IMG/VR virus record: IMGVR_UViG_3300001683_001688
Coordinates: 1-52,835 of that record
Strand: one strand, 5' to 3'
Source of the DNA: a virus
DNA: 52,835 nucleotides
How positions within the stretch are numbered: the first letter of the stretch is position 1; every line of letters begins with the position of its first letter. The translations under genes were made by a program, and so were the position numbers. A model generated the notes under the pieces. The model was not told the DNA's origin. It ran no database searches and worked only from the letters and a program-made list of their open reading frames with translations. Shown in pieces: positions 2,918-52,806 of this stretch.

Positions 2918-2922
2918 TATAA

Positions 2923-4299
2923 ATGAATGATAGTCACCCGCATTTCGGACAATACGGAAAGCAATTTCAAGAGAAGATATTTCAGGGATTTATCACAGAT
3001 CAAAAATGGGCAGCACAAATGATCGAAGTGATGACGCCTGCGTACTTTGAATCAAAATACTTAAAATATCTTATTGAGAAATATTTTAGCTACTATCAAA
3101 AATACAAGGCTTTTCCAACTCTACCTCTTTTAATAACAATAATAAGGGATGACCTAAGGGAGGGAAATGATATAATTCTAAGAGACCAGATTGTAGAGTT
3201 TCTTCATCGAATCAAGATGAATCCAGATATTGGAGATCTAGGGTTTGTCAAAGATAAGTCTCTTGAGTTTTGCAAGAAGCAGGCTCTTAAAGATGCTCTT
3301 GAGCGCGCAGTTGAACTAATAGCAACTGACAAGTATGAATCAGTTGTAGATCTCATGAAAAACGCAATACTGAAGGGTATGCCATCTTCAATTGGTCATA
3401 ATTTCTTTGAAGACTTTGATGCAAGATTTGCAAGAATATCAAGAGTCACATGTCCGCTTGGCTTAAAGCAGCTTGATAAGAAAGATGTTTTAAACGGAGG
3501 CTTAGGGCGAGGAGAGATAGGTGTTATCACAGCACCAACTGGTGTTGGAAAGTCTCACTTCTTAGTTCATGCTGGTGTTGAAGCTCTAAAGGTGGGAAAG
3601 AATGTTGTTCATTATACATTTGAACTCTCAGAAAATGCTGTAGGCTTAAGGTATGATAGTAATCTTTGTAGTATTCCTAGTAATGATGTCATTGATCATA
3701 AAGATGAGGTCATAGAAAAATATAATAATATGGATCTTGGAAGGCTAATAATCAAGGAGTATCCTACAGGGTCTGCAACGGTTCTTACTTTAAGAAATCA
3801 TATAGAGAAGCTTTTACTCAAATCATTCGTTCCTAGCTTAATAATTATTGATTATGCGGATATTATGAGATCTTCAAGAAGATTCGATTCTCTTCGCCAT
3901 GAGTTAAAGTTAATTTACGAAGAGTTGAGGAATCTTGCTATGGATCTAGGGCTGCCTATATGGACTGCTTCACAAGCAAATAGGGAGGCATCAAATGCAG
4001 ATATTGTGGGCTTAGAAAATATGGCAGAGGCATATGGAAAGGCAATGGTTGCAGATGTTGTCCTCTCTATGTCTAGAAAACCACTTGAAAAAGCCAGCGG
4101 TACAGGAAGATTATTTGTTGCAAAAAATAGAGCAGGCAGAGATGGCATATTATTTCCTATACACTTAGATTGCTCTATGTCAAAATTGAAAATCGTAAAT
4201 GATTCAGATGAGATGACACTCAACGAAGTGATGAAATCTGACTCTACATCTATGAAAAAATTGCTTAAGCAAAAGTGGAAAGAAGTTAACGGTGAGTGA
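2923..4299 (+). CDS. Replicative DNA helicase, DnaB/gp41 family
   Basis: A hexameric 5'-3' helicase for fork unwinding. Residues 1-150 form a DnaB-type helical N-terminal domain. The RecA-like motor follows, with Walker A APTGVGKS (204-211), the catalytic glutamate in YTFE (E234), Walker B IIIDYAD (307-313), the sensor-like TASQANREA (348-356), and KNRAGRDG (401-408) carrying the probable arginine finger. The length, 458 residues, is normal for T4 gp41-like proteins. No primase is seen beside it; it may lie outside the window. Confidence 0.9.
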   Translation: MNDSHPHFGQYGKQFQEKIFQGFITDQKWAAQMIEVMTPAYFESKYLKYLIEKYFSYYQKYKAFPTLPLLITIIRDDLREGNDIILRDQIVEFLHRIKMNPDIGDLGFVKDKSLEFCKKQALKDALERAVELIATDKYESVVDLMKNAILKGMPSSIGHNFFEDFDARFARISRVTCPLGLKQLDKKDVLNGGLGRGEIGVITAPTGVGKSHFLVHAGVEALKVGKNVVHYTFELSENAVGLRYDSNLCSIPSNDVIDHKDEVIEKYNNMDLGRLIIKEYPTGSATVLTLRNHIEKLLLKSFVPSLIIIDYADIMRSSRRFDSLRHELKLIYEELRNLAMDLGLPIWTASQANREASNADIVGLENMAEAYGKAMVADVVLSMSRKPLEKASGTGRLFVAKNRAGRDGILFPIHLDCSMSKLKIVNDSDEMTLNEVMKSDSTSMKKLLKQKWKEVNGE

Positions 4300-4332
4300 T
4301 ATTTGTTGTAAGAATTAATTCTAGGATTTAAA

Positions 4333-6865: not shown

Positions 6866-6932
6866 CTATGACAATAATATCACATTCACGAAAATTTATA
6901 TTTCTAAAATCAGAAAAGACTGCAGGGACAAG
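6866..6932 (+). repeat. 67-base exact repeat shared by the two sulfotransferase genes (copy 1)
   Basis: The 67 bases from 6866, spanning the start codon, recur exactly at 7591-7657 at the start of the next gene. Further near-identical blocks pair 7321-7374 with 8061-8114 and about 7481-7570 with 8221-8310, while the sequence between them is diverged. Confidence 0.9.
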
Positions 6933-7596
6933 TCTTCTTCAATCTCTTGGAAAACATTGCGGTAATAAAGATATTGTTTGCGGCACAGGCAGAAAATATC
7001 ATAGTGAATATCCCGACTATAGTAAAAATAACGAAGGATTTATACAGCACATGACAAGTGAAAGAATTATTAGAGAGATACAGCCAAGATATAAAAACTG
7101 GAAAGAAATATGGAACTCTTATTTTAAATTTACATCTATAAGAAATCCCTGGGATCAGCATGTCTCAAACTATTGCTGGAACTATGCAAAGGCTGGTATT
7201 AACAATCCTATTGATAAAAAAAAAATAGCCATGCCAGGAGATAAAAATTTTAAAAATTTATTTAAGGAATCTATTAACTCTCAAGAATCATGCAATTGGG
7301 AAAAATATTACTTTTACAATAATCTTCCAGTAGCAGATTTTTACATAAGATTTGAATATCTAGAAGAGGATTTTAAACATGTGTGTAGAAAACTAGACAT
7401 CAAAGATGCTTCTCTTCCTATTATGAAACGCTACAAGGAAAGAGAAATAGGTAGATTTTCGTATAGAAAATTTTACGATAAAGAGACTAGACAGCTTGTT
7501 TATAATAAACATATAAATATAATTGAATCATTTGGCTATAAGTTTAATGATAGCTCCAATGTAAAAAATACAATTGAAAATGTGAATAAACTATGA
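6868..7596 (+). CDS. Sulfotransferase family protein, copy 1
   Basis: A probable PAPS-dependent sulfotransferase that would move a sulfuryl group to a sugar or other acceptor. The 5'-phosphosulfate loop is KSEKTAGTS (14-22) and the 3'-phosphate motif is FTSIRNPWD (88-96), in the order and spacing of the Sulfotransfer_2 type. Conserved aromatic and charged stretches follow (NWEKYYFYNNLPVADFYIRFEYLEEDF). Its ATG starts three bases after the nrdJ stop, and its TGA overlaps the ATG of the paralogue. The acceptor cannot be told; surface glycans or lipids of the infected cell are an inference. Confidence 0.75.
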   Translation: MTIISHSRKFIFLKSEKTAGTSLLQSLGKHCGNKDIVCGTGRKYHSEYPDYSKNNEGFIQHMTSERIIREIQPRYKNWKEIWNSYFKFTSIRNPWDQHVSNYCWNYAKAGINNPIDKKKIAMPGDKNFKNLFKESINSQESCNWEKYYFYNNLPVADFYIRFEYLEEDFKHVCRKLDIKDASLPIMKRYKEREIGRFSYRKFYDKETRQLVYNKHINIIESFGYKFNDSSNVKNTIENVNKL

Positions 7597-8345
7597 CAAT
7601 AATATCACATTCACGAAAATTTATATTTCTAAAATCAGAAAAGACTGCAGGGACAAGCATATTGCAATCACTAGGCAAACATTGTGCTGGTGAAGATATA
7701 GTTTGTGGAACATCTAGACGCTATCACAGAGATTATAAAGATTATAGTATGAACAATAGTGGATTCGATATTCACATGACTAGTGATGCTGCTGTAAGCG
7801 CAATGCAATCTAAGTACAAAAAATGCTGGAAAGAAATGTGGAACTCTTATTTTAAATTTACAAGTATAAGAAATCCCTGGGACCAATACGTTTCAAGCTA
7901 TTGCTGGACTATGGCAAAAAGGTGTATAATGGAGGGTCGATCCGCTCAGCACATTAGTAAAAGCATTATTATGCCAGACAGACCAGATTTTAAAGATCAC
8001 TTTGCTAGACATATTCAGCTCTCTAATTCTAACAACTGGGAAAAATATTATTTTTGTAACAATCTTCCAGTAGCAGATTTTTACATAAGATTTGAATATC
8101 TAGAAGAGGATTTTGAATTTATATGTAAAAAACTAGATATCAAATACAAGTCGCTTCCTTTTATGAAAAATTATCAAGAAAGAAGAAGAGATGAATATCA
8201 CTATGCTGACTTTTATAATGAAGAGACTAGACAGCTTGTTTACAACAAGCATATAAATATAATTGAATCATTTGGCTATAAGTTTAATGATAGCTCCAAT
8301 GTAAAAAACACATTGAAAAATATTTATAGACATAATGATAAATAA
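7593..8345 (+). CDS. Sulfotransferase family protein, copy 2
   Basis: Tandem paralogue of the preceding gene, with the same PAPS motifs (KSEKTAGTS and FTSIRNPWD) and an insertion of about 10 residues after CWTMAKRC. The first 21 codons are identical at the DNA level to copy 1, and two further blocks are nearly identical, while the middle is diverged. This is a duplication followed by uneven divergence or gene conversion. It starts with ATG overlapping the previous TGA. The end runs up to the ribosome site of iscU. Confidence 0.75.
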   Translation: MTIISHSRKFIFLKSEKTAGTSILQSLGKHCAGEDIVCGTSRRYHRDYKDYSMNNSGFDIHMTSDAAVSAMQSKYKKCWKEMWNSYFKFTSIRNPWDQYVSSYCWTMAKRCIMEGRSAQHISKSIIMPDRPDFKDHFARHIQLSNSNNWEKYYFCNNLPVADFYIRFEYLEEDFEFICKKLDIKYKSLPFMKNYQERRRDEYHYADFYNEETRQLVYNKHINIIESFGYKFNDSSNVKNTLKNIYRHNDK

Positions 8346-8358
8346 GCTAAGGAGTGAA

Positions 8359-8745
8359 GTGGCATATTCAGAAAAAGTAATTGATCATTTTGATAATCCT
8401 AAGAATGTAGGATCACTTGACAAGAATGATCCTTCAGTGGGAACTGGGTTGGTCGGAGCACCAGCCTGCGGCGATGTGATGAAATTACAAATTAAGATTA
8501 GTGATGAAGGTATTATTGAAGACGCAAAATTTAAGACATTTGGTTGCGGCTCTGCAATAGCATCTAGCTCTTTAATTACAACCTGGGTTATGGGTAAATC
8601 AATTTATGATGCATCACTTATTAAGAATTCTGATATTGCAGAAGAGCTTAATTTACCTCCAGTGAAGATTCATTGCTCTGTGCTTGCAGAAGATGCAATA
8701 AAGGCAGCAATTAAGGACTACAGGAATAAAAATGAAAATAAGTGA
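8359..8745 (+). CDS. iscU: IscU Fe-S cluster assembly scaffold
   Basis: Builds [2Fe-2S] clusters on three cysteines before transfer to apo-proteins. All ligand regions are present: APACGDVM (with the conserved Asp), FGCGSAIASSS and KIHCSVLAEDAIKAAI. The LPPVK motif recognised by the HscA chaperone is intact. I chose GTG at 8359 because AAGGAG lies 5-9 bases upstream and the product then begins MAYSEKVIDHFDNPKNVGS, like E. coli IscU, and is 128 residues as in bacteria; an in-frame ATG at 8335 lies inside the previous gene and adds eight unmatched residues. The close resemblance to bacterial IscU suggests fairly recent acquisition. Confidence 0.95.
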   Translation: MAYSEKVIDHFDNPKNVGSLDKNDPSVGTGLVGAPACGDVMKLQIKISDEGIIEDAKFKTFGCGSAIASSSLITTWVMGKSIYDASLIKNSDIAEELNLPPVKIHCSVLAEDAIKAAIKDYRNKNENK

Positions 8746-9028
8746 CATACAAGACTTAATAGATGAAGAAATTAACCCTGTACTTGAGTCACATGGCGGG
8801 TTTATATCGATTAAAGAACTTGATGAGTCTAATAAGATTTTGAAGCTTATTATGGGCGGCGGTTGTCAAGGTTGTGCATCTTCAAAGACGACAATGATAA
8901 ACGGCGTCAGAGGGCATATAATGGAAGCATTTCCAGAGATCATAGAAATCGAAGACGTGACAGATCACATTGCAGGTGAAAATCCATACTATGCTAACGG
9001 GGACACAGATGGCAATAACAATAACTAA
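8732..9028 (+). CDS. Nfu-type Fe-S carrier (NifU C-terminal domain)
   Basis: A stand-alone Nfu domain that holds and delivers [4Fe-4S] clusters. The key GGGCQGCAS (CxxC) motif is intact, preceded by INPVLESHGGFI. The C-terminal half (DVTDHIAGENPYY) matches the end of bacterial NfuA, which normally also has an N-terminal A-type-like domain that is absent here. Start ATG lies inside the end of iscU and the stop lies inside iscA, so the three genes form a coupled unit. Confidence 0.9.
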   Translation: MKISDIQDLIDEEINPVLESHGGFISIKELDESNKILKLIMGGGCQGCASSKTTMINGVRGHIMEAFPEIIEIEDVTDHIAGENPYYANGDTDGNNNN

Positions 9029-9335
9029 TTTTGCTAAAGATAAAATAAGCACTATTCTTAAACAGCGACAGACACCTGATTACTATCTTAAAGTATCACT
9101 TCAAGGAGGCGGTTGCTCTGGCTTTATGTATAGCTATGATTTTATTAAATCTCCTGACGATAAAGATAAGGTATTTGACTTTCAAACAGTTAAGATTTGT
9201 ATAGATATCAAATCTTATCTTTTTTTAAATGGAATGGAAATTGATTATCAAGAAGATTTACTTAAGTCTGGTTTGGTGTTTAATAACCCCAAGGTCACAA
9301 GATCTTGCGGGTGCGGGGAATCAGTAACATTTTAA
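9009..9335 (+). CDS. iscA: A-type Fe-S carrier (IscA/ErpA/SufA family)
   Basis: An Fe-S carrier with the three conserved cysteines: GGGCSGFMY near the N-terminus and SCGCGESVTF at the C-terminus. With start at ATG 9009 it is 108 residues and begins MAITITNFAKDK, as in bacterial IscA/ErpA; an in-frame ATG at 8970 would add 13 residues unlike the family and a longer overlap with nfu. It follows iscU and nfu without a gap. No cysteine desulfurase or ferredoxin is in the window, so host IscS would be needed. Assignment between IscA, ErpA and SufA is uncertain. Confidence 0.9.
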   Translation: MAITITNFAKDKISTILKQRQTPDYYLKVSLQGGGCSGFMYSYDFIKSPDDKDKVFDFQTVKICIDIKSYLFLNGMEIDYQEDLLKSGLVFNNPKVTRSCGCGESVTF

Positions 9336-9352: not shown

Positions 9353-9955
9353 ATGAAGTGGGTAACGAAAATATCTCCTCTAATAAAGGAGATAGAGCTT
9401 AGAAAGAATCCCGTAATAGTAAGGGTAAATAAGTTTGATGAAGATTCAGCAAAGAAATTTGATCAAGAAGTAGCGCAAGCACACAATACAGGCCAAAAAG
9501 TAATACCTGTTGTGATTGACTCTTATGGCGGTCAAGTTTATAGTTTAATGTCTATGATTAGTGCAATAAAGAATGCAGAACTACCTGTTGCAACAATAGT
9601 AGAGGGAAAGGCGATGTCATGCGGTGCTATTCTCTTCTCTTTTGGAACAGACGGGTATAGATTTATGGACCCTAACGCAACAGTTATGATTCATGATGTC
9701 TCGTCTATGGATATGGGAAAGGTTGAGGAGCTTAAGGCTGGCGCAAAAGAAGCAGACAGATTAAACGAAATTGTTTATAAGATGATGGCACAAAATTGTG
9801 GAAAAAAAGACGATTATTTTATGAAGATTGTCGATAAAAAGAAACATGCAGATTGGTTTTTAGATGCTGAAGAGGCGAAAAAGCACGGTATGGCAAATCA
9901 TTTAAGGGTGCCAAAAATTAATATCTCTGTCGATGTTAGCATAGATTTTGAATAG
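9353..9955 (+). CDS. ClpP-like serine peptidase
   Basis: The crotonase-fold ClpP triad is visible: Ser89 in GKAMSCGAILFSFG, His114 in VMIHDVSS and Asp167 in HADWFLDAEEAKKHGMAN. IDSYGGQVYSLMSMISAI is the oxyanion-side segment of ClpP (IDSPGG in the host enzyme). At 200 residues it is the size of bacterial ClpP. Clear ribosome site GAGG upstream of the ATG. It sits between Fe-S assembly and glutamine synthetase rather than with capsid genes, so a role in host protein turnover seems as likely as prohead maturation; this is inference. Confidence 0.85.
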   Translation: MKWVTKISPLIKEIELRKNPVIVRVNKFDEDSAKKFDQEVAQAHNTGQKVIPVVIDSYGGQVYSLMSMISAIKNAELPVATIVEGKAMSCGAILFSFGTDGYRFMDPNATVMIHDVSSMDMGKVEELKAGAKEADRLNEIVYKMMAQNCGKKDDYFMKIVDKKKHADWFLDAEEAKKHGMANHLRVPKINISVDVSIDFE

Positions 9956-9962
9956 TGAAAAT

Positions 9963-10976
9963 ATGAAAAATATAATATTAGAATATGTGTGGCTTGACGG
10001 CTACTCCACGCAAAATTTAAGAAGCAAGATTAAGGTTTTGCATACTGATAATTTAAAGATCGACATTGAAGATGTTCCGGTTTGGAATTTTGACGGAAGC
10101 TCAACAAGACAGGCACCTGGATACGATTCAGAGTGCTTGCTTTCTCCCGTGAGGCTTTATGGTCTAACAGGAGGTTATCACTATGTGATGTGTGAGGTGC
10201 TGAATTCAGATGGCACTCCTCACGTTTCAAACTCAAGAGCTTTGCTTGCAGAGCTTGGGGATAATTTTAATGAAGCAGGGTTTTGGTGGGGATTCGAGCA
10301 GGAATATTTTATAACAAAAGATAAGAGTCCAATTGGTTTTCCGCAGACTGGGCATCCTGACTCACAAGGAAGATATTATTGCTCAGTTGGCGGAAGTAAT
10401 GCGATTGGTCGAGATATTGCTACCGCACATCTTTATAATTGCCTAAGGCTTGGAATAAAACTAACAGGTATAAATGCAGAAGTGGCTCCGTCACAGTGGG
10501 AGTATCAGTGCTTTGCTGAAGATACTCTTAAGGCTTGCGATGATCTCTGGATGAGCAGATATTTTCTGCTAAGAGCAGCAGAGAAAGAAGGACTAGATAT
10601 AGACTTTTCACCCAAACCAGTGAAGGGCGACTGGAATGGTTCCGGCTGCCACACAAATTTCTCAACTAGAGAGATGAGAAATATTGGTGGATATCCTCTT
10701 TTTAATGATGTACTAGAGAATTTTAGGGAATATCATAAAACTCACATGGGGCAATATGGTGAAAATAATGACCAAAGACTTACGGGAGACCACGAGACAC
10801 AAAAAATTAATATGTTCTCTTGGGGTATAGCTGATAGAGGCGCATCATTAAGGGTGCCATCATCTGTTCCTAATGATGACTGGAAGGGATATCTTGAGGA
10901 TAGAAGACCAGCATCAAATTGTGATCCATATAGTGTCGCATTAGAAATTGTTAAGTCAACTTTATTTCTTAGGTAA
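9963..10976 (+). CDS. Glutamine synthetase, type II (eukaryote/GlnII-like)
   Basis: ATP-dependent amidation of glutamate to glutamine. Type II signatures occur through the whole length: LEYVWLDG at the N-terminus, WNFDGSSTRQAPG with DSECLLSPV, the metal/ATP site GFEQEYF, GINAEVAPSQWEYQ, NGSGCHTNFST, RLTGDHET, and the C-terminal YLEDRRPASNCDPY. At 337 residues it is a normal GSII length, not a fragment. I chose ATG 9963; an in-frame TTG at 9948 inside clpP adds five residues. GSII is usual in eukaryotes and some bacteria, so its presence in a phage is unusual. It may supply amide nitrogen for nucleotide synthesis. Confidence 0.92.
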   Translation: MKNIILEYVWLDGYSTQNLRSKIKVLHTDNLKIDIEDVPVWNFDGSSTRQAPGYDSECLLSPVRLYGLTGGYHYVMCEVLNSDGTPHVSNSRALLAELGDNFNEAGFWWGFEQEYFITKDKSPIGFPQTGHPDSQGRYYCSVGGSNAIGRDIATAHLYNCLRLGIKLTGINAEVAPSQWEYQCFAEDTLKACDDLWMSRYFLLRAAEKEGLDIDFSPKPVKGDWNGSGCHTNFSTREMRNIGGYPLFNDVLENFREYHKTHMGQYGENNDQRLTGDHETQKINMFSWGIADRGASLRVPSSVPNDDWKGYLEDRRPASNCDPYSVALEIVKSTLFLR

Positions 10977-29131: not shown

Positions 29132-29608
29132 GTGGAATATGAAATAATCTTATTGCAGATATTGTTAACGTGGATTTACGGTCACGTAGCTGAATACTCT
29201 TTACATAGGTGGGCTCTTCATAAGATAGGCGCAAAGAGAGGACACCCATTCTCATTTCATTTTTATTCACATCATAAAAACTCTAGATTAAATAGCTATA
29301 AAGATAGTGCGTATCAAGGTTTTCCATTGCGGTGGGATGCTGCTGGAAAAGAATTGCTATCTCTTTTAGGTCTATTATTATTACACTCACCGTTATATTT
29401 TTATTTCCCGTGGGTATTTCTTACCATAGTATTCTCTATGTGTAGCTATTACTATACACATAGCAGATCACATAGAGATCCAGAGTGGGCAAAGAAAAAT
29501 ATTCCATGGCATTTTGATCATCATATGGCATTAAATCAGAATATGAACTACGGTGTTAGAAGTGACATAATAGATAGAATAATGGGTACTAGAGAAAAAA
29601 TGGCCTAA
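29132..29608 (+). CDS. Membrane di-iron hydroxylase (fatty acid hydroxylase superfamily)
   Basis: Histidine clusters HRWALH (25-30), HFYSHH (43-48), HSRSH (110-114) and HFDHH (127-131), with hydrophobic segments before and between them (about 5-20 and 77-104), follow the pattern of integral membrane di-iron hydroxylases and desaturases. It would hydroxylate or oxidise a lipid. Start GTG at 29132. Phage lipid-modifying enzymes of this type are uncommon; it lies between nucleotide genes and dnaJ. Substrate unknown. Confidence 0.75.
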   Translation: MEYEIILLQILLTWIYGHVAEYSLHRWALHKIGAKRGHPFSFHFYSHHKNSRLNSYKDSAYQGFPLRWDAAGKELLSLLGLLLLHSPLYFYFPWVFLTIVFSMCSYYYTHSRSHRDPEWAKKNIPWHFDHHMALNQNMNYGVRSDIIDRIMGTREKMA

Positions 29609-29620
29609 GGCAAAGATCAA

Positions 29621-30706
29621 ATGTCAGATCACTATAAAATTCTTGGTATTGAAAGAGATACTTCTCAAGAAAATATAAAAAAAGCATATAGAAAACTAGC
29701 ATTAAAATATCACCCAGATAGAAATCCAGAAAATCCTGACGCCGAGCGAAGATTTAAGGAAATATCTGAATCATATTCTATACTATCAGATGAAGAAAAA
29801 AGAAGAAATTACGATAACTTTGGTGACCCAAATAGTCAACAATTTTCGGAATTTAATCGTGGCAATTTTCATGGATTTGAAGATATATTTGCCGGAATGC
29901 CTTTTGCTGAGGAGATGTTTGGTGATAGAATGGGGAGAGACTCTGCGTCAAGGAGATCTTCAAGTCGTAAAAACACATCAAGCGGAGTAAGATCGTCTGA
30001 TATAAAGAAGTCAGTATCTATAAGTCTTAATGAAGTTCTTCTTGGATGTGAAAAAAGAATAGAGTACGATATGGGAATACCGTGTAGTAAGTGTGTCGGA
30101 AATGGATATTGCGACACAGCTGACTTATCAAAATGCGATCACTGCCTGGGGTCAGGATCAATTACTCACGGAACATCGTTTATGAGATTAAGCACAACTT
30201 GCTCTAACTGTAATGGTCAAGGAAGAGTAATTTCAAAACCTTGCAGAGGTTGCGCTGGAAGAGGATTGAACAAGGAGCTAAGATCTATAAATGTGACAAT
30301 ACCCTCAGGAATCAGAGACGGAATGCAAATGAGAGTAGCAGGCGCAGGCAACGTTGGATCTGTAAAGGGAGATGTTGGAAATTTATACCTTGATGTAAAT
30401 GTAATAAAACAAAAATCAATAGAGAGAAATGGTCCGCATCTATATATCGATAAAAGCATATCATTTTCTCAGGCTGCCCTTGGAGATAAAATTAGAGTTG
30501 ATCTACTCGACGGCAGTGTTAATCTAAGTGTTCCTCCTGGGACCCAACCTGGCTCAATGATGTCAATTGATGGAAGGGGATTGCCTGAAGATGTTGGTAG
30601 TGACGATAGGGGGAACTTTTACGTAAAACTGAATATCAAAGTTCCCAAATCAATGTCAGAAAAACAGAGACAATTAGTTGAAAAATTGAAAAACTCTGGC
30701 ATGTAA
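29621..30706 (+). CDS. dnaJ: DnaJ (Hsp40) co-chaperone, complete
   Basis: All DnaJ parts are present in order: a J-domain (residues 1-70, YHPDRNPE), a G/F-type linker, four CxxCxGxG zinc motifs ([32 protein letters not shown]) and the C-terminal substrate domain. At 361 residues it is close to bacterial DnaJ. No DnaK or GrpE is in the window, so host DnaK is the partner. It would aid folding of phage proteins or remodel host complexes. Confidence 0.95.
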
Positions 30707-42875: not shown

Positions 42876-44780
42876 ATGCAAGTCGTTGTTAAAAGATCAG
42901 CGCTTTTTACAGCGCTTAAAAATATTATAAGTGAAAATAGAACTGGTGAATCTGGAAGAATAGATGATATAATGAGAGATGCTGCTATGGGCGAAGAGCC
43001 CATAGAGGCAACCGAGCAAATGGCGACACAGCTATCAGTTGACATGCCAGATGTCTCCGACGTTGATTTTGTTCCTGCAACTATTGAACAGCTGTCAAGA
43101 TCAGCTTATGTAATTGCGAATGCAGTTCCGCCCGATGAAGTAGAGTGGTTCTATAGAATGCTTCATGATATGCTAGACCAATCTCTAGATAGAGATTCTA
43201 AAGTATCTGAAGAAGAGGTAGAAGAGATCGAGGTAGAAATAAATGAGTCTATTGTTAACAAGGTTATATCACTTCTTCTTGAGCAGGATGATGAGTGGAC
43301 TGATGATGAGCTTGATAGGATTGAAGTTGCTAAACATCAGGTTGAAGAATATCTAGAGTCAATTAATTTTGGACACTCAGAAAAAGAGATGCCATCTGGA
43401 AAAGTACTCAATCTTCCCTTTTGGCAAGCTATTATGAAACTATCTCTTGATGACACAATCGGGCCTAAAAGCCTAGACCCGAAGATTGCAGAAATTATAC
43501 TTGACTTATCATCAGAAGAGGCAGAAAGAGTTTTAGATATTATAAGAGAAACGTGGATGGGATATGCACGAATACCAGTTCCTAAGCAAGATCCAAATCA
43601 GATCGCAGTCAGACAGGTTCTTGCAAAAGAGCTAGATGTGCTACTCACACAATACACGTATTGGGATATAATAGACATATATGAAAAAAGATTATCAGAC
43701 GAGTCTACATCACCCGAGTGGTTTCAAGATCGTCTAAAACACAAAGATGGAGAGATGTGGAGAGTCGGAACAAGAGGTATGATTGACACTGTAAAGACTA
43801 GAATAAGATCTCCTGAAAAGAGAGAGAGAACTGACTTCACTGTTAAGTCAGGTCACTATAGAGAAGACACTGGTGATGATGAAGATATAGCGACGTCGAG
43901 CGGAATGTCTGAGGAAGAACGGCTTAAGACTCTAGATTCTCTTGCGCCGCTCTTTGGATTTAGAAATGCAAGCGGTCTTCGCCAATGGAGAATGAAATTT
44001 CCAGAAGCAATCTTTAAATCTGTAATAGGGTCAGAGGGCGGAATCAAAGCATATGAAGGATATTCCGACGTAGTATTTGATTACCTTTCAGCCCTTTTAG
44101 ACAATCTATCTGATGCGGTCGCACAAGTTTCTGAAAATCTAGAAGATGCAGCTGAGAAAGATCCTGATAACGAAGATATTTCTGAAACGCTAAAAGCACT
44201 CCAGCAAATTGATATAGATCTTGTGGAGATAAAAGAGAAGAGGGATAATGATCCAGAAGAGGCTCTTGATACAACAATGCTATTGACCACACTCGGAGGC
44301 AAGGTTCTTAGACAGGTGTTTAGTACTTATTTTTACAGAAATGAGTTTATAGATTATGCCAGGGAGATGATGAAACATATGACCGCATCTATAGCTGGTA
44401 TGGGAGTTAATTCTAAAACAGCAAAAGGCTTTGCAAAGATGTTTAACGGAGAGGTTGCTCTTCAGCTGTTTAACTCTGGTGCAAGGCAGATGGAGAAGTT
44501 GAAAGCAGGCGGTATAACATCTGAGATATATACACAATCACTTTCAGTTGCGGAGAGATTTAATAAAGATTTTTTTGGAGGCAAGCGTCTTAAAGATGTC
44601 AAGGCGACATTTATGAAGCTGCTTAAAGATGATGCCAAGTTGCAAAAAGCATTACTACATGCAATTCCAGACGCTCTATCTTGGGGAAAGATAGAAAGAG
44701 AGAACCCGCAGCTTAAAGTACAATCTCCAGAAGACTTAGCTGAGCAAAAAATTAGAAAGTTAATCTCAGGAATGATTTAA
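42876..44780 (+). CDS. Large helical protein, possible internal virion protein
   Basis: 634 residues, mostly helical and acidic, without known motifs. N-terminus MQVVVKRSALFTALKNIISE contains a basic helix then ISE, as in other proteins here that may be cleaved and packaged. A repeated helical C-terminal region and DNP-type turns suggest structural use. GGAG precedes the ATG. Its TAA overlaps the ATG of the next gene. Function unknown. Confidence 0.65.
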   Translation: MQVVVKRSALFTALKNIISENRTGESGRIDDIMRDAAMGEEPIEATEQMATQLSVDMPDVSDVDFVPATIEQLSRSAYVIANAVPPDEVEWFYRMLHDMLDQSLDRDSKVSEEEVEEIEVEINESIVNKVISLLLEQDDEWTDDELDRIEVAKHQVEEYLESINFGHSEKEMPSGKVLNLPFWQAIMKLSLDDTIGPKSLDPKIAEIILDLSSEEAERVLDIIRETWMGYARIPVPKQDPNQIAVRQVLAKELDVLLTQYTYWDIIDIYEKRLSDESTSPEWFQDRLKHKDGEMWRVGTRGMIDTVKTRIRSPEKRERTDFTVKSGHYREDTGDDEDIATSSGMSEEERLKTLDSLAPLFGFRNASGLRQWRMKFPEAIFKSVIGSEGGIKAYEGYSDVVFDYLSALLDNLSDAVAQVSENLEDAAEKDPDNEDISETLKALQQIDIDLVEIKEKRDNDPEEALDTTMLLTTLGGKVLRQVFSTYFYRNEFIDYAREMMKHMTASIAGMGVNSKTAKGFAKMFNGEVALQLFNSGARQMEKLKAGGITSEIYTQSLSVAERFNKDFFGGKRLKDVKATFMKLLKDDAKLQKALLHAIPDALSWGKIERENPQLKVQSPEDLAEQKIRKLISGMI

Positions 44781-45187
44781 TGAGATTGTTAGAGTTCTTA
44801 AACAAGACTGGTGAAGCTTCTCTTCCAACAGGATCAGTCGAGATAGTGTTAGGGGCTCTAAGAACAACTGTTCCTGACCCCAGTCTGCCCATCGATGCAA
44901 ACATTTCAGATTGGATAACAGCCTCTGACCCAGAGAGACTCATAAAGACTTTTGTATTCGACACACCTGCACACGTGGCATATTTTGTAAGTGAATTAAT
45001 GCTATATCAAGAAGAGACTCATCATCATGCCAAGATCATTATAGATTTTAGAGATGTAACAGTAGAGACATATACACATGATATTAACTCAGTTACTAGA
45101 CAAGATATTGTACTAACAGAATTTTGTGATGAAATATATAATGATATCTCTTTTTTAGACTATGCGAGAAATAATGTCAGTAGATAA
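44780..45187 (+). CDS. Pterin-4a-carbinolamine dehydratase-like protein
   Basis: Residues about 50-120 match PCD/DCoH: QEETHHHAKIIIDFRDVTV with ETYTHD and LTEFCDEI after it, in the family order (two-His motif, then T-H-D, then a C-terminal helix). A 50-residue N-terminal extension begins MRLLEFLNKTGE. PCD dehydrates 4a-hydroxy-tetrahydropterin and may assist folate/pterin recycling, which could support ThyX; that role is inference. Start overlaps the preceding TAA. Confidence 0.7.
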   Translation: MRLLEFLNKTGEASLPTGSVEIVLGALRTTVPDPSLPIDANISDWITASDPERLIKTFVFDTPAHVAYFVSELMLYQEETHHHAKIIIDFRDVTVETYTHDINSVTRQDIVLTEFCDEIYNDISFLDYARNNVSR

Positions 45188-46675: not shown

Positions 46676-47986
46676 ATGAATTCTTCTGAGAGACTTTTAG
46701 TAGAGGCTATAAATCAAAGTATATGTGTGCTAGACGAGAAGAGACAACACGAGTATGGTTCCCAAAAGCACCTCGATGAACTTGATAATCTAATAGGGGA
46801 TATTAGAGATCTTAAAGATTCATTAAGGAAAGGTCCAGACAGATTTAAGCATAGAAAAGAGATGCACAGGCTTCAAGATGCTATCGGAGCGATTCGCTAT
46901 CTCAAAAGTGTAGCAAAGAGATCTGGAATTAATAACGGTCTACTTGCTGAGGGTGGATTAAAGGCACCAGAGCTAACTGGAGATGTGATACTTGATCCTC
47001 AAACTGCAGAGGCGGCAGTTGACTCATACATTAGCGTAATTGAAATGTGGAATTCTCAACATCTTTCTCAGGCTGGTTTAGATCCAGTAACGCCGGTTAG
47101 GGCAGTTGGATCAACGTCGTATTATGACATCGACTCTCCTGAAGAAGTTTACGGCGATGTCGATTATCTTGTCTCGTTTCCAGTTGAAGTAGAAGAAAAC
47201 TCAACAGAGAAAGAGATTAGGGACGCAGAGAATAGAGTTAAAAGAGAATACGAGAAGGAATTTGTAAAATTTTTGAGAACATCGCGAGAGGTTCAACAAT
47301 ATGCAAATGTTGATGCGACGCTTAGAAGCTCTCCTCTTCTTGTTATAGTAAAGCTACCTGATGGTGGATACGTCCAGGTTGATACAATTGTTACGTTCTC
47401 TAGGTTTATACCCAACGAAAGCGGCGAAGAATGGATGCCAGCAAGGTGGACACCAGAGAGAGGCAGAAAGGGATATACTATTGGACATCTATATACAGCT
47501 TTGGGCGGCTATTTTAATATGTCTATTGGTGATAGAGGCGTGCTAGCAAAGACACGAGACGGTAAAAGAGTCCCCTTCTCTCAGAGAAAAGGAACATCTT
47601 TATCTTCTATAAGCAGGAATATTCGCACATTTTTACGAGATATAGCTATTGAGATTGCTGGTGATGATGTTGTTGAGAATGAGTTGCTATTGAGATACCC
47701 TGGAGTTGATCCTGATAATATCACAATAGCAGATCTAGCAAAAGGGATACGCGGTCTGGCTTTAACTCTTGGGGGAGCCGGAGCTATCTCATCTTCTGAC
47801 GAGATGCTAGGGTCAATTCTTAATCTATATGCTGCTGGATTAAAGAAAAATATTGACAGTAAGCTTTCAAGAGGTCTTGATCAAAAGTCCTATGATAAGC
47901 TTAATAAACTTAACAGCACTGTATATACCATCGTAAGTGATGTGTTTTCAGGAGGAGACGTAGATAGTGGATTACTTCATATCTGA
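46676..47986 (+). CDS. Pol beta-fold nucleotidyltransferase
   Basis: Minimal nucleotidyltransferase motif: AVGSTSYYD with G145-S146, then YGDVDYLV (D161 and D163), and the third acid D236 in VQVDTIVTF. 436 residues, with a helical N-terminus (residues 1-90) and a C-terminal helical region. Such enzymes add nucleotides to RNA, protein or small molecules; the substrate cannot be told. Its end overlaps the GTG of a metallophosphoesterase, which overlaps the multidomain gene at 48617. Confidence 0.75.
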   Translation: MNSSERLLVEAINQSICVLDEKRQHEYGSQKHLDELDNLIGDIRDLKDSLRKGPDRFKHRKEMHRLQDAIGAIRYLKSVAKRSGINNGLLAEGGLKAPELTGDVILDPQTAEAAVDSYISVIEMWNSQHLSQAGLDPVTPVRAVGSTSYYDIDSPEEVYGDVDYLVSFPVEVEENSTEKEIRDAENRVKREYEKEFVKFLRTSREVQQYANVDATLRSSPLLVIVKLPDGGYVQVDTIVTFSRFIPNESGEEWMPARWTPERGRKGYTIGHLYTALGGYFNMSIGDRGVLAKTRDGKRVPFSQRKGTSLSSISRNIRTFLRDIAIEIAGDDVVENELLLRYPGVDPDNITIADLAKGIRGLALTLGGAGAISSSDEMLGSILNLYAAGLKKNIDSKLSRGLDQKSYDKLNKLNSTVYTIVSDVFSGGDVDSGLLHI

Positions 47987-48620
47987 TATGCACTTTGGCC
48001 ACAAGAAGATTATAGGATATTGTAATCGACCGTGGAAAACTGTTCAGGAGATGAACGATGGTATCGTTAGGAGGTGGAATCATAGCATAACAGACGGAGA
48101 TAGAGTGTTCGTTGTGGGTGATGTTTTCCTCATGGATCCAAAAGATGCCACACCTATCGTCAATTCTCTTAACGGCTATAAGATTTTAATAGCTGGAAAT
48201 CACGATAGAAGCGAAAAGACAATGCTGGCTTGCGGGTTTGATGAGTATCACAGGGAGTATGACTATATGCTTGAAGGATTTGGCCCAGGCCTGCTTAATC
48301 ACTATCCCCTCCCTGACACTGTTATAGTAGATAGAGGCTACAGCTTTATGGTTCACGGTCACATTCACGATCCTCCAATGATAAGAGGATTAAAGATAAA
48401 TGTCGCTGTAGACGTTAATGATTTTAAGCCTGTGTCAGAGTTGAATCTAATGGAGGTGATGCCCCTGCTCACGAATAAGTCTGAACAAGAGGTGTTTGAC
48501 GTTAGCATAGTTGACGGAAGAGTAGAAGCAAAGATACTTATTGATTCAGCTGACTTCTCCGGTGTATCTGATACTGTATACAGAATGCTTAAGCAATATT
48601 ATAAGAAGGGAAAACGATGA
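47967..48620 (+). CDS. Calcineurin-like metallophosphoesterase
   Basis: Complete metal motifs: ISDMHFGH (D7, H9), VVGDVFLMD, AGNHDRS and VHGHIHD. 217 residues, single domain. Start GTG 47967 within the end of the nucleotidyltransferase gene, ribosome site GGAGGA upstream. Its TGA overlaps the ATG at 48617. MPE-family phosphatases heal nucleic-acid ends in Pnkp-type repair systems; that role is inferred here from the neighbours. Confidence 0.85.
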   Translation: MDYFISDMHFGHKKIIGYCNRPWKTVQEMNDGIVRRWNHSITDGDRVFVVGDVFLMDPKDATPIVNSLNGYKILIAGNHDRSEKTMLACGFDEYHREYDYMLEGFGPGLLNHYPLPDTVIVDRGYSFMVHGHIHDPPMIRGLKINVAVDVNDFKPVSELNLMEVMPLLTNKSEQEVFDVSIVDGRVEAKILIDSADFSGVSDTVYRMLKQYYKKGKR

Positions 48621-51472
48621 AGTTAGGATTATACGGCGGAGGATTTAAACCTTTTACAACTGGTCACTTCTCTAAGCTAGCTAACGCTATTAGGGATAAT
48701 GATAAAGTGATTCTCTTTTATGGTCTTCAGGAGAGAAAACTTCCAAAGCTATCTAAGAGAACAGGGAAGCCCCTTAAGTCACAGCAGAAGTTTAGAAAGA
48801 TTGGAGGCTCTGAAAGACTATACACCCCAGAGATCTCTAAGGAGATCTTTGACATCTATGAGTCTGCTATTGAGAGAGAGATCCCGTCTATTGAGATTGA
48901 GTCCACAATGGGAACAACTCCTATGAGAAGGATATTTGAGATCCTAGAGTCATTCGCTGCAGACCCAACATTATATGAGAAGGTTACAGTCTACGGTGGC
49001 TCTGATATGCCAGCACCCTATCTTAGAGAGCTTCATAGATTTGATGATCTTGTTCGCAGTGGAAAAATTCAGTTTGGCGCTGTTGCTCCGGAGTCTATTG
49101 ATGACTATCTTGACGAAGAGAGACTTGCAGCTCTTGTGGGTAGATCAGAGGAAGAGGCAGCAAAGTCACTTGCGAAATACTACTATCCAGACTTTGACCC
49201 AGAGATTGACGAGGTTTCTCAAGACATCTTAGACATGGCAAGAGTTCGAGGGACAGCTGTTCGAGGGCATGCCTCTGGTGAGGCTGGTATCGAAGAAGCA
49301 AAGAGATTTCTACCTCCATTTCTTAACGACGATGAGAAGCAGAGAGTTGTTGACATACTACTTGGGCACACAGAAAATCCAGTAACAGAGTCACGCATAC
49401 GCAGAGCATTAATAAGAGCTTCAGCTAGATTTGCTAGAGAGAGACTCTTGAGGGAGCAGGGAGATAAGATTCAGTCAGTGCCTCCAGGGAGAGAGGCACA
49501 CATATACAATCTCTACGAGGATCTAGCGATGCCATTATCTGACATAGTAGAGATAGCAAGGCTAGCGCTAGATGGAAAGCTTGAGAACTTCCAGGAGAAG
49601 GTTGACGGTCAGAATGTAACTTTCACTGTTCGGGACGGAGTTCTTAGATTCTTCACCAAGATGAGTCTTGTCTCTGATAGAGATCTAGGGAATGCTAGAA
49701 GAAAGATCGGTGAGGGAATGGGGATGGACTTAGCTGTCATCAACGACAAGTATGGGGATAGACCTGGTGTCGCTGCTGCGTTCTCTCTTGGGTATGAGGC
49801 GCTTGAGCCAGTAGCATTACAGTTTCAGGATTCTCTATTTAAAAATGGTGATGTCGTAGTTGTATCAGGCTTGATGACATCTGTGAACCCAAACACTATC
49901 ATCTATGATGCAGACACCTTTAGGTTTATAACGCCAGTCTCTTTAACTGATGACCCAGTAGACCAGGGAGCTTATGATCAGTTCTTGCAGCAGGCAAGAG
50001 CAGCAACGACAGATGCATTCTCAATGGACTCAGTTCCAACAGCAAAGCTTGTTGAGGACCTTGAGACTGATGACGCTGAGATTGAGAGCTTGATGTCACA
50101 GCTTGACTCAGTTGTTAGCGACGTTGGGCTATCAGTTGGGTCTTCTACTGTTGGTGAGTATGTTATTGCAAGTGTTGAAAAGCTTCTTAGAGAAAAGTAC
50201 ACCTTTATCCCGGAGGATCTTGTTCCAGCAGTTGCAAATAGGTTTGCAACCAAGAGGGGTGCAATTGCAAATGCTTTTAAGAAGCACTCTGACACCACGC
50301 CTGAGGATTACGAGCAGCTCAAGAGAATTGACGGAATCAAGGCAGACGTTGTTGCAGAGGCAATAGTTCCTCTTGAGGCAGTGATTCAGAGGCTTGGTGT
50401 CATGGTGATCGATAAGCTTGATCTAGCGCTCACAGCGAGTAATCAGAATGAGCTAAGCATATTTGTGAAAAATGCACGAAGACAATTTGAAAGTGGTGGC
50501 ATCATAGCAGATGAGAAGACTCTTGAGAGAATTAGGATATCGCTAGCGAGGCTCGAGGCTAATGAGGATCTATTCACAAAGGCTACAGAGGGGATAGTGT
50601 TCACCTTCAATGGAAATACTTACAAGCTAACCGGTCTATTCACTCCAATCAACAGGTTGCGTGGTTTCTTTGAATACGGATCAGCCAGGCTGCCCCAGAT
50701 GTACAGTGATGAGATGAATGAGGTTATAATAAGGGCGGCAAGAAGGTTCCTCCAGGAGGGAGGAGACGTCTTTAAAGACAGCTCTGGCGCTCCACTTACA
50801 GTAGAGATTGAGCTAGCTAACGTAGAGCCAACACTTAGAGATTTCTCATCTAAGTTTCTTGAGCCTCTAGACTTGGGAGACTATGGTGCAATAGGTAGCA
50901 CAGGAAAAGCATCGAGATCTGGAGACTTAGATCTTGCAGTTCCAGTCTCAAAGGATGTGTATGACGACAGGAACAAGCTTAAGCTTTATAAGAGGGAGCT
51001 TGTGTCTAATCTGATATCACTGGGTGCACCCGACGCAAAGATCACAGCCTCGAACATATATGTTCTCTTTCCTATATCCGGAGAGACTCAGGCTGGAGAG
51101 TTCGTTCAGATAGATTTAATGCCCACTCCGTGTGTTGGAGACACGTGCTGGCTCATGTCAGGTGTCGGAGACGTTGGTGTTAAGGGAACATATAGAAATC
51201 AGCTACTCAATCTTATAGCTCGAGAGAGAGGTCTTGAGGGTAACCCTCGTGAGAAGGTGACGATAGCTTACCCGGGCGGTCTTCAGATAAAGACACTTCC
51301 TGAGCGAGATAATCGGGGCAATCCCATCGATCCGTCTGATCCAAAGAGCAAGAGGAAGTGGAAGAACGTCGGCCCAAAGATATCTGATCCCGCAACCATA
51401 CTAGGGATGCTAGGTGTTCCCGCTGCACCTGAAGATGTCGAGACGTTTGAAGAGCTTGTTGACGTAATGTGA
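48617..51472 (+). CDS. Three-module nucleotidyltransferase: NMNAT-like, ligase-like and Pol beta-like domains
   Basis: 951 residues. Module 1 (1 to about 190) starts LYGGGFKPFTTGHFSKLANAI, the cytidylyltransferase/NMN adenylyltransferase fold. Residues 259-283 form a basic helix (SRIRRALIRASARFARERL). Module 2 (about 300-690) has ligase-type adenylyltransferase motifs: KVDG (K328), NPNTIIYD (424-431), EGIV (658-661) and YKLTG (K670), with a helical insertion between. Module 3 (about 740-951) has GS (760-761), GDLDL (D770, D772) and QIDLM (D833), the Pol beta motif. The combination is unusual. Confidence 0.75.
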   Translation: MKLGLYGGGFKPFTTGHFSKLANAIRDNDKVILFYGLQERKLPKLSKRTGKPLKSQQKFRKIGGSERLYTPEISKEIFDIYESAIEREIPSIEIESTMGTTPMRRIFEILESFAADPTLYEKVTVYGGSDMPAPYLRELHRFDDLVRSGKIQFGAVAPESIDDYLDEERLAALVGRSEEEAAKSLAKYYYPDFDPEIDEVSQDILDMARVRGTAVRGHASGEAGIEEAKRFLPPFLNDDEKQRVVDILLGHTENPVTESRIRRALIRASARFARERLLREQGDKIQSVPPGREAHIYNLYEDLAMPLSDIVEIARLALDGKLENFQEKVDGQNVTFTVRDGVLRFFTKMSLVSDRDLGNARRKIGEGMGMDLAVINDKYGDRPGVAAAFSLGYEALEPVALQFQDSLFKNGDVVVVSGLMTSVNPNTIIYDADTFRFITPVSLTDDPVDQGAYDQFLQQARAATTDAFSMDSVPTAKLVEDLETDDAEIESLMSQLDSVVSDVGLSVGSSTVGEYVIASVEKLLREKYTFIPEDLVPAVANRFATKRGAIANAFKKHSDTTPEDYEQLKRIDGIKADVVAEAIVPLEAVIQRLGVMVIDKLDLALTASNQNELSIFVKNARRQFESGGIIADEKTLERIRISLARLEANEDLFTKATEGIVFTFNGNTYKLTGLFTPINRLRGFFEYGSARLPQMYSDEMNEVIIRAARRFLQEGGDVFKDSSGAPLTVEIELANVEPTLRDFSSKFLEPLDLGDYGAIGSTGKASRSGDLDLAVPVSKDVYDDRNKLKLYKRELVSNLISLGAPDAKITASNIYVLFPISGETQAGEFVQIDLMPTPCVGDTCWLMSGVGDVGVKGTYRNQLLNLIARERGLEGNPREKVTIAYPGGLQIKTLPERDNRGNPIDPSDPKSKRKWKNVGPKISDPATILGMLGVPAAPEDVETFEELVDVM

Positions 51473-52806
51473 TTACAGATCCCGATCTCAGCGGATATCT
51501 TCCAAAGTTTGAGGGATATATGCTTCGGCACCTCTCATCTGAAAAGAGTGCAGCCTCTGCACAGAGGGCTGTTGACCACGTCAATGCTGCTATTGCTGGA
51601 AGAAAGGATGGGATTTTAGCAGAGGTTCATCTTAGAAGGGCAGTGAGACAGATATTAGAGGAGTCTCTTGGAAGGTCTGGGTCACAACAAGCTTCAGGCA
51701 TCACAAGAGTCAATTTTACAAATATTGAAACAGAATATTTCTCCAACGCAGCTTCATTTGGGGATGGAAAAGGAGAAGTCTCCGTCGCAATGTCAATTCT
51801 TGGTCTGGGGTTACCCGAAGAAGGAAGACATCCAAACGTCAGGGATCAGATACGCGATGTAAAAGCTCAAAAATCTACTGCTGGTACAATTTTTGGTTCT
51901 CCAGAAGGAGAGGCCGCAGATAAATCTCTTGTGGGAGGATCTACTAGAAGCTATGATCTATTGTTTTCCCAGACGATAGTTGATAATGTCTCAAGAATTC
52001 TTGATATTCCTATTGAATTACATCATGGAGTACCAGTAGGAGCTAGAGTAGAGGTAAAAGAGATAAAAACTGCATTTACACCAACGAAGTCCAGCAAAAA
52101 ATTTAGGCTTGGAACAGAGTCAAGGGCAGCAGTCTTTGGAAGCGCAGCACAAACAGAAGTTACGATTATTTCAAAAGTTTGGCATTGCATAATAAAAGAG
52201 CTGGAGAGGCTTGAAGGGCAAGAAGCAGAAAAAGTAGAACAAGACAATGCTTACCAACAGTTTCCGTATAGAGAAAAATTGAATCAATATGCAATTAGAA
52301 AAGGACTAAGTCAGTCAGATATAGATTTCTTTTTCTCAGGCAATGCACGATATGCAATGATTAAAAATTTGGGGGCCGAAGGTGCGGGCGGCTTGACAGA
52401 AAGAGGTGGAGACATATCTAGAACTGAAAAGACATTGAAGATTTTTAATTTTCTTAAAAGCGTAGATGGCAATCAATCAACGCGCCATTTTTGGTGGCAG
52501 CCAATTATAAGAAGTAGAAGCATGGAATGCGGGCGCTTTCGCGATGTCGTCATAGCATCCCAAGGGCCCAGCGGATTAACATTTCCAAATTATTTGGCAA
52601 GTCTTGATGTATCTAATATTTTGAAAGGGTTTGACTATCTTGCTCTTGTAGACTCCTTAGGGTTCTTTATTTTAAAAGCAGATACAACACTATTTAGTAA
52701 AGCCACTGTTGATGCAGTAACTGATGGCGGAAGGGTTAGAATACAAATTGATCTTTCTGATTATTTTAGCGGAGGGGCTCGAGTTGCGGAGCTAGATAAT
52801 GATTGA
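51469..52806 (+). CDS. Hypothetical protein, 445 residues
   Basis: GTG at 51469 overlaps the TGA of the 951-residue protein. Residues 52-66 contain HLRRAVRQILEES, the basic helix plus ILE site found at other N-termini; upstream sequence could be a separate linker. The remainder includes RSYDLLFSQTIVDNVSRIL and AAVFGSAAQTEVTIISKVWH. No enzyme motif recognised. Its end overlaps the next ATG. It ends the nucleotidyltransferase cluster as visible. Confidence 0.6.
   Translation: MITDPDLSGYLPKFEGYMLRHLSSEKSAASAQRAVDHVNAAIAGRKDGILAEVHLRRAVRQILEESLGRSGSQQASGITRVNFTNIETEYFSNAASFGDGKGEVSVAMSILGLGLPEEGRHPNVRDQIRDVKAQKSTAGTIFGSPEGEAADKSLVGGSTRSYDLLFSQTIVDNVSRILDIPIELHHGVPVGARVEVKEIKTAFTPTKSSKKFRLGTESRAAVFGSAAQTEVTIISKVWHCIIKELERLEGQEAEKVEQDNAYQQFPYREKLNQYAIRKGLSQSDIDFFFSGNARYAMIKNLGAEGAGGLTERGGDISRTEKTLKIFNFLKSVDGNQSTRHFWWQPIIRSRSMECGRFRDVVIASQGPSGLTFPNYLASLDVSNILKGFDYLALVDSLGFFILKADTTLFSKATVDAVTDGGRVRIQIDLSDYFSGGARVAELDND

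Follow-up and report, generated by a model that had tools for sequence, protein, structure and literature searches.

A phage gene cassette built around an NMNAT-like and RNA-ligase-like protein, with a possible role in RNA repair

Why would a phage carry, in four overlapping genes, two Pol beta nucleotidyltransferases, a phosphoesterase and a protein that joins an NMN adenylyltransferase (NMNAT)-like domain to a ligase-like one? The cassette that raises this question lies in a 52.8-kb virus fragment (hereafter the window, i.e., the whole stretch of DNA analyzed), which also encodes UvsX, DnaB, ribonucleotide reductase, an endolysin and a DNA polymerase of phrog_405, and thus comes from a large tailed phage. 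A sequence-only reading had described four genes overlapping end to start, and the open reading frames confirm them (46676–52806; overlaps of 20, 4, and 4 nt). The residues it singled out all lie where it placed them: G145-S146, D161/D163, and D236 in P0001, and K328 (EKVDG), E658 (EGIVF), K670 (YKLTG), D770/D772 (GDLDL), and D833 (VQIDL) in P0003. The composition it gave stands for the two Pol beta domains, the phosphoesterase and the NMNAT–ligase protein, but not for P0004, which is none of the named modules. The features are as follows (a slash marks a module border).

P0001, 46676–47986, + strand: 436 aa; helical N-terminal region and predicted Pol beta-superfamily nucleotidyltransferase A
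Pol beta A core of P0001, 46997–47407 (approximately residues 108–244), + strand: placed by the conserved GS146, GDVDY, and VQVD motifs and predicted topology
P0002, 47967–48620, + strand: 217 aa; calcineurin-like metallophosphoesterase, presumed to be a phosphatase cleaning ends
P0003, 48617–51472, + strand: 951 aa; NMNAT-like, RNA-ligase-like, and Pol beta modules
P0003 module 1, 48617–49306, + strand: NMNAT-like HIGH-family nucleotidyltransferase (GGFKPFTTGH ... RGTAVR)
P0003 junction 1 (TESRIRRALIRASARFARERLLRE/Q), 49391–49459, + strand: basic helix that closes with [LIVM]xE at residue 280, where processing may occur
P0003 module 2, 49487–50686, + strand: RNA-ligase-like covalent nucleotidyltransferase (motif I K328, IV E658, V K670)
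P0003 junction 2 (NEVIIRAARRFLQE/GG), 50708–50758, + strand: candidate processing site at residue 714
P0003 module 3, 50759–51469, + strand: putative Pol beta B (GSTGK, GDLDL, VQIDL)
P0004, 51469–52806, + strand: 445 aa; module-border-like region, then a payload without a match

Composition and conservation of the cassette

Finding relatives took profile alignments, as P0003 and P0001 used singly as queries against viral contigs returned nothing; contigs L170–L180 were recovered with the C-terminal Pol beta module of P0003. The nearest relatives (L176/L177 and L178) keep the same order—P0001, phosphoesterase, NMNAT–ligase–Pol beta fusion—with identities of 45 and 43% for P0001, 36–37% for the phosphoesterase and 47% for the fusion. 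Elsewhere among the relatives the modules have come apart or disappeared, with breaks at module borders: three consecutive genes of L171 and L172 encode NMNAT, ligase, and Pol beta, the last two of which are also separate neighbors in L173. In L085 and L174 the NMNAT is a gene of its own, P0001 is reduced to its N-terminal ~100 aa (the Pol beta part is absent), and the phosphoesterase is missing. The sequence-only reading had tied its proposal to a gene order kept in related phages, which is what we find in the nearest relatives but not in L085 and L174. The cassette is conserved and not a chance assembly, and the motifs of P0001 and P0003 are not due to chance either, since they too are conserved across relatives.

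Both proposed Pol beta domains hold up, as GS..GDxD..Q[IV]D is conserved in each and each fits the superfamily pattern hG[GS]..[DE]h[DE]h..h[DE]h. Specifically, the P0001 motifs (GS146, GDVDY, VQVD) are conserved in the L176/L178 homologues, the AF2 model of its core (pLDDT mostly 70–90) has the helix–strand–strand–helix–strand–strand order of the MNT core topology, and its top Foldseek matches (the CD-NTase CdnG, MiD51, OAS1, and cGAS; E 2e-3 to 6e-2) are weak but consistent. Motifs, predicted topology and fold matches together place P0001 in the superfamily. Module 3, whose AF2 model is of low confidence, is assigned to it by motif alone; it is conserved as a fused domain in L085, L174, L176, and L178 and as a separate gene in L088 and L170–L173. 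Membership in the RlaP family (PF10127) was rejected for the Pol beta domains, as no profile match appeared at E ≤ 10 in the window or the L085 and L088 contigs, and a recent duplication linking P0001 and module 3 is not supported, their mutual similarity being undetectable by BLAST.

P0002 is a calcineurin-like phosphoesterase (PF00149, 4e-6; phrog_547, 3e-41), as first read; it has a counterpart at the same place in L176/L178 and belongs to a family very common in phages (1080 records). The other three proteins have no Pfam match, and the sole PHROG match for P0003 is a weak one to NMNAT. P0004 matches nothing in Pfam, PHROG or phages; its residues 5–66 (..AEVHLRRAVRQILE/E..) resemble residues 955–1019 of the L176/L177 fusion (38% identity over 62 aa) and share homology with the border between modules in the fused relatives; an unrelated payload follows. 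Rfam gave no RNA element.

The RNA-ligase-like family and its NMNAT-like partner

A nucleotidyltransferase fold for module 2, as the sequence-only reading had proposed, is borne out by structure prediction and Foldseek, which specify it as RNA-ligase-like. The AF2 model, built with 30 relatives, has a pLDDT of mostly 80–97 and includes a helical insertion at approximately residues 486–655. Phmmer with P0003 and a 42-domain ligase profile against PDB sequences recovered no solved ligase (only PPAT fragments and a spurious ribosomal eS6), so that fold comparison was needed. Against the PDB, module 2 matched T4 Rnl1 (9do4, 5.6e-3) and archaeal RNA ligases (8ucg, 2vug) at E-values of 5e-3 to 2e-2, and the ligases among the best 50 PDB fold matches of P0003 are RNA ligases without exception. 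Against viral models the best matches were phage “cytidyltransferase-like” proteins of 825–915 aa (E ~1e-20), followed by many RNA ligases (2e-4 for those in BFVD). The modest E-values to known ligases reflect the multidomain P0003 model, and the family is therefore best named RNA-ligase-like, a fold that we predict with confidence.

Across 42 ligase domains EKxDG does not vary, and ARNK, EG[IV]xF, and YK.TG vary little or not at all; the window protein has the motif I KxDG nucleophile and motifs IV and V (EG[IV]xF, K.TG). The acidic residue of motif III typical of the RNA ligase superfamily is present in the family at large (nearly all other members keep Glu, as in NLEIIYP), but not in the window protein, where G replaces it (VVVSGLM), nor in L085, L174, L176, and L178, where it is Q (SQIM). 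Ligase activity in the window is doubtful mainly for this reason, and the enzyme of this clade could be weak or inactive.

The family, previously unnamed, is matched by nothing in Pfam or PHROG, nor directly by any PDB sequence. Phage metagenomes contain many members, cellular genomes hardly any: a four-sequence profile matched more than 570 IMG/VR contigs and another, with the window sequence at its head, at least 575 viral contigs, while among 84,980 cellular species genomes we found eight relatives, all on MAG contigs. By tblastn a single isolate matched, and weakly: Microcystis phage Mel-JY01, whose protein WWT39297.1 is annotated “cytidylyltransferase like protein” and led us to two uncultured huge phages. 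This large phage family and the motif III Glu lost in the window clade, like the capsid-targeting-like tags and cleavage-like borders described below, go beyond the sequence-only reading.

Module 1 carries the GxFxPx[HT]xGH and [ST]xxR motifs, and its best Foldseek match is NadM (2qjo, 6.6e-4), followed by PPAT/NMNAT; by motifs and predicted HIGH fold it is a NadM-like NMNAT with putative NMN specificity. The link to NAD that the sequence-only reading suspected is strengthened by the family as a whole, in which an NMNAT-like partner is fused or adjacent in 144 of the 147 ligase loci with enough context (120 fused, 24 as separate genes, e.g., in L085, L174, L171, and L172) and absent from three with enough flank; 28 further loci, too short to judge, are outside this count. 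As the domain occurs N-terminal to the ligase, C-terminal to it or as its own gene, the two have stayed together despite several rearrangements. We found no description of an NMNAT and RNA-ligase-like pair in the literature searched.

Other partners vary. In marine T4-like relatives, single proteins of 840–2463 aa also include an AAA_33/zeta-like P-loop kinase (34 ligase loci in all), a CCA-adding nucleotidyltransferase and HD; in L015, L021, and L144 the ligase is fused to the kinase and/or to the CCA-adding enzyme with HD. A 5-kb stretch of L088 contains ligase, kinase, NMNAT-like, and Pol beta genes, the first two separated by an amidase gene.

Module borders, tags and the prohead protease

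In T4, the prohead protease cuts after L/I-x-E, and N-terminal propeptides of 10–19 residues target proteins into the head (PMC9026906). The three borders in the window (LLRE/Q, FLQE/GG, QILE/E) have this form. A single [LI]xE site means little, as such sites occur about once or twice per 100 residues of these proteins; what suggests processing is that relatives repeatedly have them at equivalent borders. At junction 1, E is always followed by Q or N (ILSE/Q, LLSE/Q, VNE/Q, INE/Q), and the L171 ligase gene starts MMIRQLIREMLMLE/N. At junction 2, relatives have ILSE/GG or MLSE/GG, and separate Pol beta genes begin at this very point (..VLTE/GGYAFK in L170, M-GGEAFK in L171–L173). Before the ligase domain, E/GG is found in 63 of 70 non-redundant cases, C or M replacing E in the other 7, and ligase genes without an upstream module begin M-GG or M-SG at that point. 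In WWT39297.1, a candidate cut after IIAE would leave the N-terminus GGLGGHMNHPFDD.

The N-termini point the same way. The tag [FYWLIVM][LI]xE lies within residues 4–20 of 29 of 49 non-redundant ligase proteins, compared to 3.9% of internal windows, and in L088 and L180 many unrelated neighboring proteins share MKHIxxFExFLNE, which fits both the T4 cleavage site and the length of its targeting propeptides (PMC9026906). A gp21-like protease is encoded by 13 of 20 ligase contigs; in T4-like relatives its gene shares the strand of the ligase gene and lies ~6–9 kb further downstream, and the 2463-aa multi-domain protein of L015 lies near a prohead protease gene. The window and the L085 contig, both fragments, have no gp21-like protease, and the three-domain P0003 has no recognized head genes nearby. 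The start of P0001 resembles the tag “MRSEELLRQLIRES” of its homologues. For the basic tag of the window clade (xLRxLIRxxL), whose first regular expression was post hoc, internal windows and shuffles served as controls; it occurs in 11 of 136 N-termini against 11 of 581 internal windows (~4-fold), a modest, at most suggestive enrichment, and the top of 300 shuffles also reached 11. Tags and [LIVM]xE borders together suggest that many relatives are virion-packaged, protease-cut polyproteins. For T4-like relatives we consider packaging likely; for the window cassette the idea is tentative.

Possible functions of the cassette

Our best explanation, to which we give about an even chance, is that the cassette serves as a kit to heal and seal RNA ends, countering host RNA damage, of which tRNA cleavage by an anticodon nuclease is the likeliest form. 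RNA, probably tRNA, is the most likely substrate because CCA-adding, Pol beta, calcineurin-like phosphatase, HD and kinase activities are the accepted phage RNA-repair set (PMC7824862). The phosphoesterase would remove 3′ phosphates, lost nucleotides would be put back by either or both of the Pol beta enzymes, and the RNA-ligase-like domain would self-adenylylate on K328 and then seal. The NMNAT-like domain would rebuild NAD+ from NMN freed by an NAD+-using ligase or, alternatively, maintain NAD+ during NADase defense. The N-terminal tags probably take the proteins of T4-like relatives into the head, and the prohead protease probably cuts them at [LI]xE, so that the kit would arrive with the phage DNA; the window modules may act likewise. 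The plausibility that the sequence-only reading granted to end healing and sealing has thus grown with the RNA-ligase-like fold and the kinase, CCA-adding enzyme and HD of relatives. Against such repair stand the motif III change in the window clade, the modest fold E-values to known ligases, the lack of a kinase in the cassette and the generic phosphoesterase family.

Several known systems resemble parts of the cassette. With T4 Rnl1 and the phage RNA-repair enzymes reviewed for jumbo phages (Pnkp, Rnl, RlaP, CCA, Thg1; PMC7824862), proposed as an answer to tRNA cleavage, it shares motifs I, IV, and V, the RNA-ligase-like fold and end-cleaning or rebuilding partners; yet here the ligase has no Pfam or PHROG match, a large helical insertion and a near-obligate NMNAT-like partner, within a polyprotein layout with head-targeting-like tags and no RlaP match. 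Bacterial Pnkp–Rnl–Hen1 (PMC4411300) likewise brings phosphatase and ligase activities together, and relatives of the cassette add the kinase. The earlier likening to Pnkp itself fails on architecture, as the cassette has phosphatase and ligase in separate proteins, no kinase (found in other relatives only) and no Hen1, with NMNAT and Pol beta added. NadM-type NMN adenylyltransferase (PMC9503650) shares GGFKPFTTGH, GTAVR, and the best fold match with module 1, which however has no recognized Nudix domain and is fused to or beside an RNA-ligase-like domain. Relatives such as L015 resemble the polyvalent proteins of phages (Iyer et al., 2017, PMC5512222), which are very large, variable multi-enzyme proteins in a virion-gene context with proposed injection; the portion of that account consulted describes no NMNAT–ligase protein, and our relatives differ in T4-like tags, gp21-like protease context and ligase, NMNAT, CCA, and kinase payloads. 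Members of the wider ligase family also recall T4 internal proteins with a capsid-targeting sequence (PMC9026906), in which a short peptide that ends in L/I-x-E opens proteins otherwise unrelated, whereas here the payloads are repair enzymes, cleavage is predicted and the window clade tag is different and basic.

Could the ends be DNA instead? Bacterial LigD is a polymerase, phosphoesterase and ligase trio, which the cassette resembles, and SDVYV..GIEVKL in the C-terminal module of L085, L174, L176, and L178 is, by eye, a possible D..ExK signature of a PD-(D/E)xK nuclease. A DNA end-joining kit with a LigD- or Pol X plus ligase-like function on incoming phage DNA ends is nonetheless unlikely, given the exclusively RNA ligases among those best PDB fold matches and the CCA-adding and HD domains of relatives. 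We attach a similarly low probability to a counter-defense in which the NMNAT-like domain restores NAD+ against NADase immunity and the ligase-like domain is a sensor or, in the window clade, an inactive partner. The near-obligate NMNAT pairing, the loss of motif III in that clade and the NAD+ synthesis enzymes carried by phages (PMC9503650) favor it, but motifs I, IV, and V are intact in the window, motif III is intact in nearly all relatives, and a role in NAD metabolism is not obvious for the kinase and CCA fusions. It is also improbable that unrelated accessory enzymes merely cluster, sharing a virion-targeting tag and no pathway: unrelated proteins do carry the same tags in L088 and L180, the P0004 payload is swapped and the phosphoesterase is generic, yet NMNAT and ligase go together in almost all of a very divergent set of phages, whether fused in either order or encoded separately. 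Finally, RNA 5′-end modification, in which NMNAT and the covalent nucleotidyltransferase build or attach an NAD or nucleotide cap, suits two paired adenylyl-transfer domains but leaves kinase, CCA, HD, and phosphatase partners unexplained, and is very unlikely.

RNA end repair thus remains our preferred reading. More tentatively, and with less confidence than for repair itself, we propose that the family comprises NMNAT-coupled, possibly NAD+-using RNA ligases, and that the RNA-repair enzymes built around it follow a widespread phage strategy: they would travel in the head as tagged polyproteins, be cut by the prohead protease and enter the host along with the DNA, so that tRNA repair would be ready before phage gene expression. 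These data bring to light an abundant phage RNA-ligase-like family tied almost always to an NMN-adenylyltransferase-like partner. If the proposed head targeting is true, phages would deliver ready-made tRNA repair and so survive anticodon-nuclease defenses that act before phage gene expression—an idea made directly testable by the family member carried by the cultured phage Mel-JY01.

Modules and genes around the cassette in related contigs

In four viral contigs of close relatives (L085, L174, L176 and L178), the module C-terminal to Pol beta contains SDVYV..GIEVKL and is possibly a PD-(D/E)xK nuclease; in the window, the payload of P0004, the fourth cassette gene, takes the place of this module. 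Some kb 3' of the cassette, all four relatives carry a gene recognized by eye as encoding a GroEL-like chaperonin, which in L085 is followed by a sigma factor (also by eye).

Fusion gene with the C-terminal module: L085 7923-11363; L174 4597-8028; L176 3754-8043; L178 3697-8016
GroEL-like chaperonin: L085 13668-15287; L174 11292-12662; L176 10445-12058; L178 10421-12031

In L179, a viral contig found by profile scans, several consecutive Pol beta-module copies (2077-6411) adjoin an NMNAT-like gene, and no ligase gene is in view around this row.

Metabolic and chaperone genes of the window

This one phage encodes Fe-S assembly genes in close proximity (NifU/IscU-type and IscA-type), together with metabolic and chaperone functions.

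6868-7596 and 7593-8345: tandem paralogues, both starting MTIISHSRKFIFLKSEKTAGTS
8335-8745: NifU/IscU-type scaffold (PF01592, 3e-53)
8970-9335: IscA-type Fe-S assembly protein (PF01521, 1e-19)
9948-10976: glutamine synthetase
29132-29608: fatty-acid hydroxylase
29621-30706: DnaJ
44780-45187: pterin-4a-carbinolamine dehydratase

Judged by eye, the paralogues are sulfotransferase-like; a Pfam search (cut-off 1e-4) returned no match for the one at 6868-7596. The block containing the dehydratase, upstream of the cassette, looks conserved in L085, L174 and L176.

A common N-terminal tag

Numerous unrelated small proteins of two further profile-scan contigs (L088 3815-15250; L180 1871-10929) begin with a near-identical tag that may serve in capsid targeting: MKHI[KQH][TLS][FY]E[GESD]FLNE.
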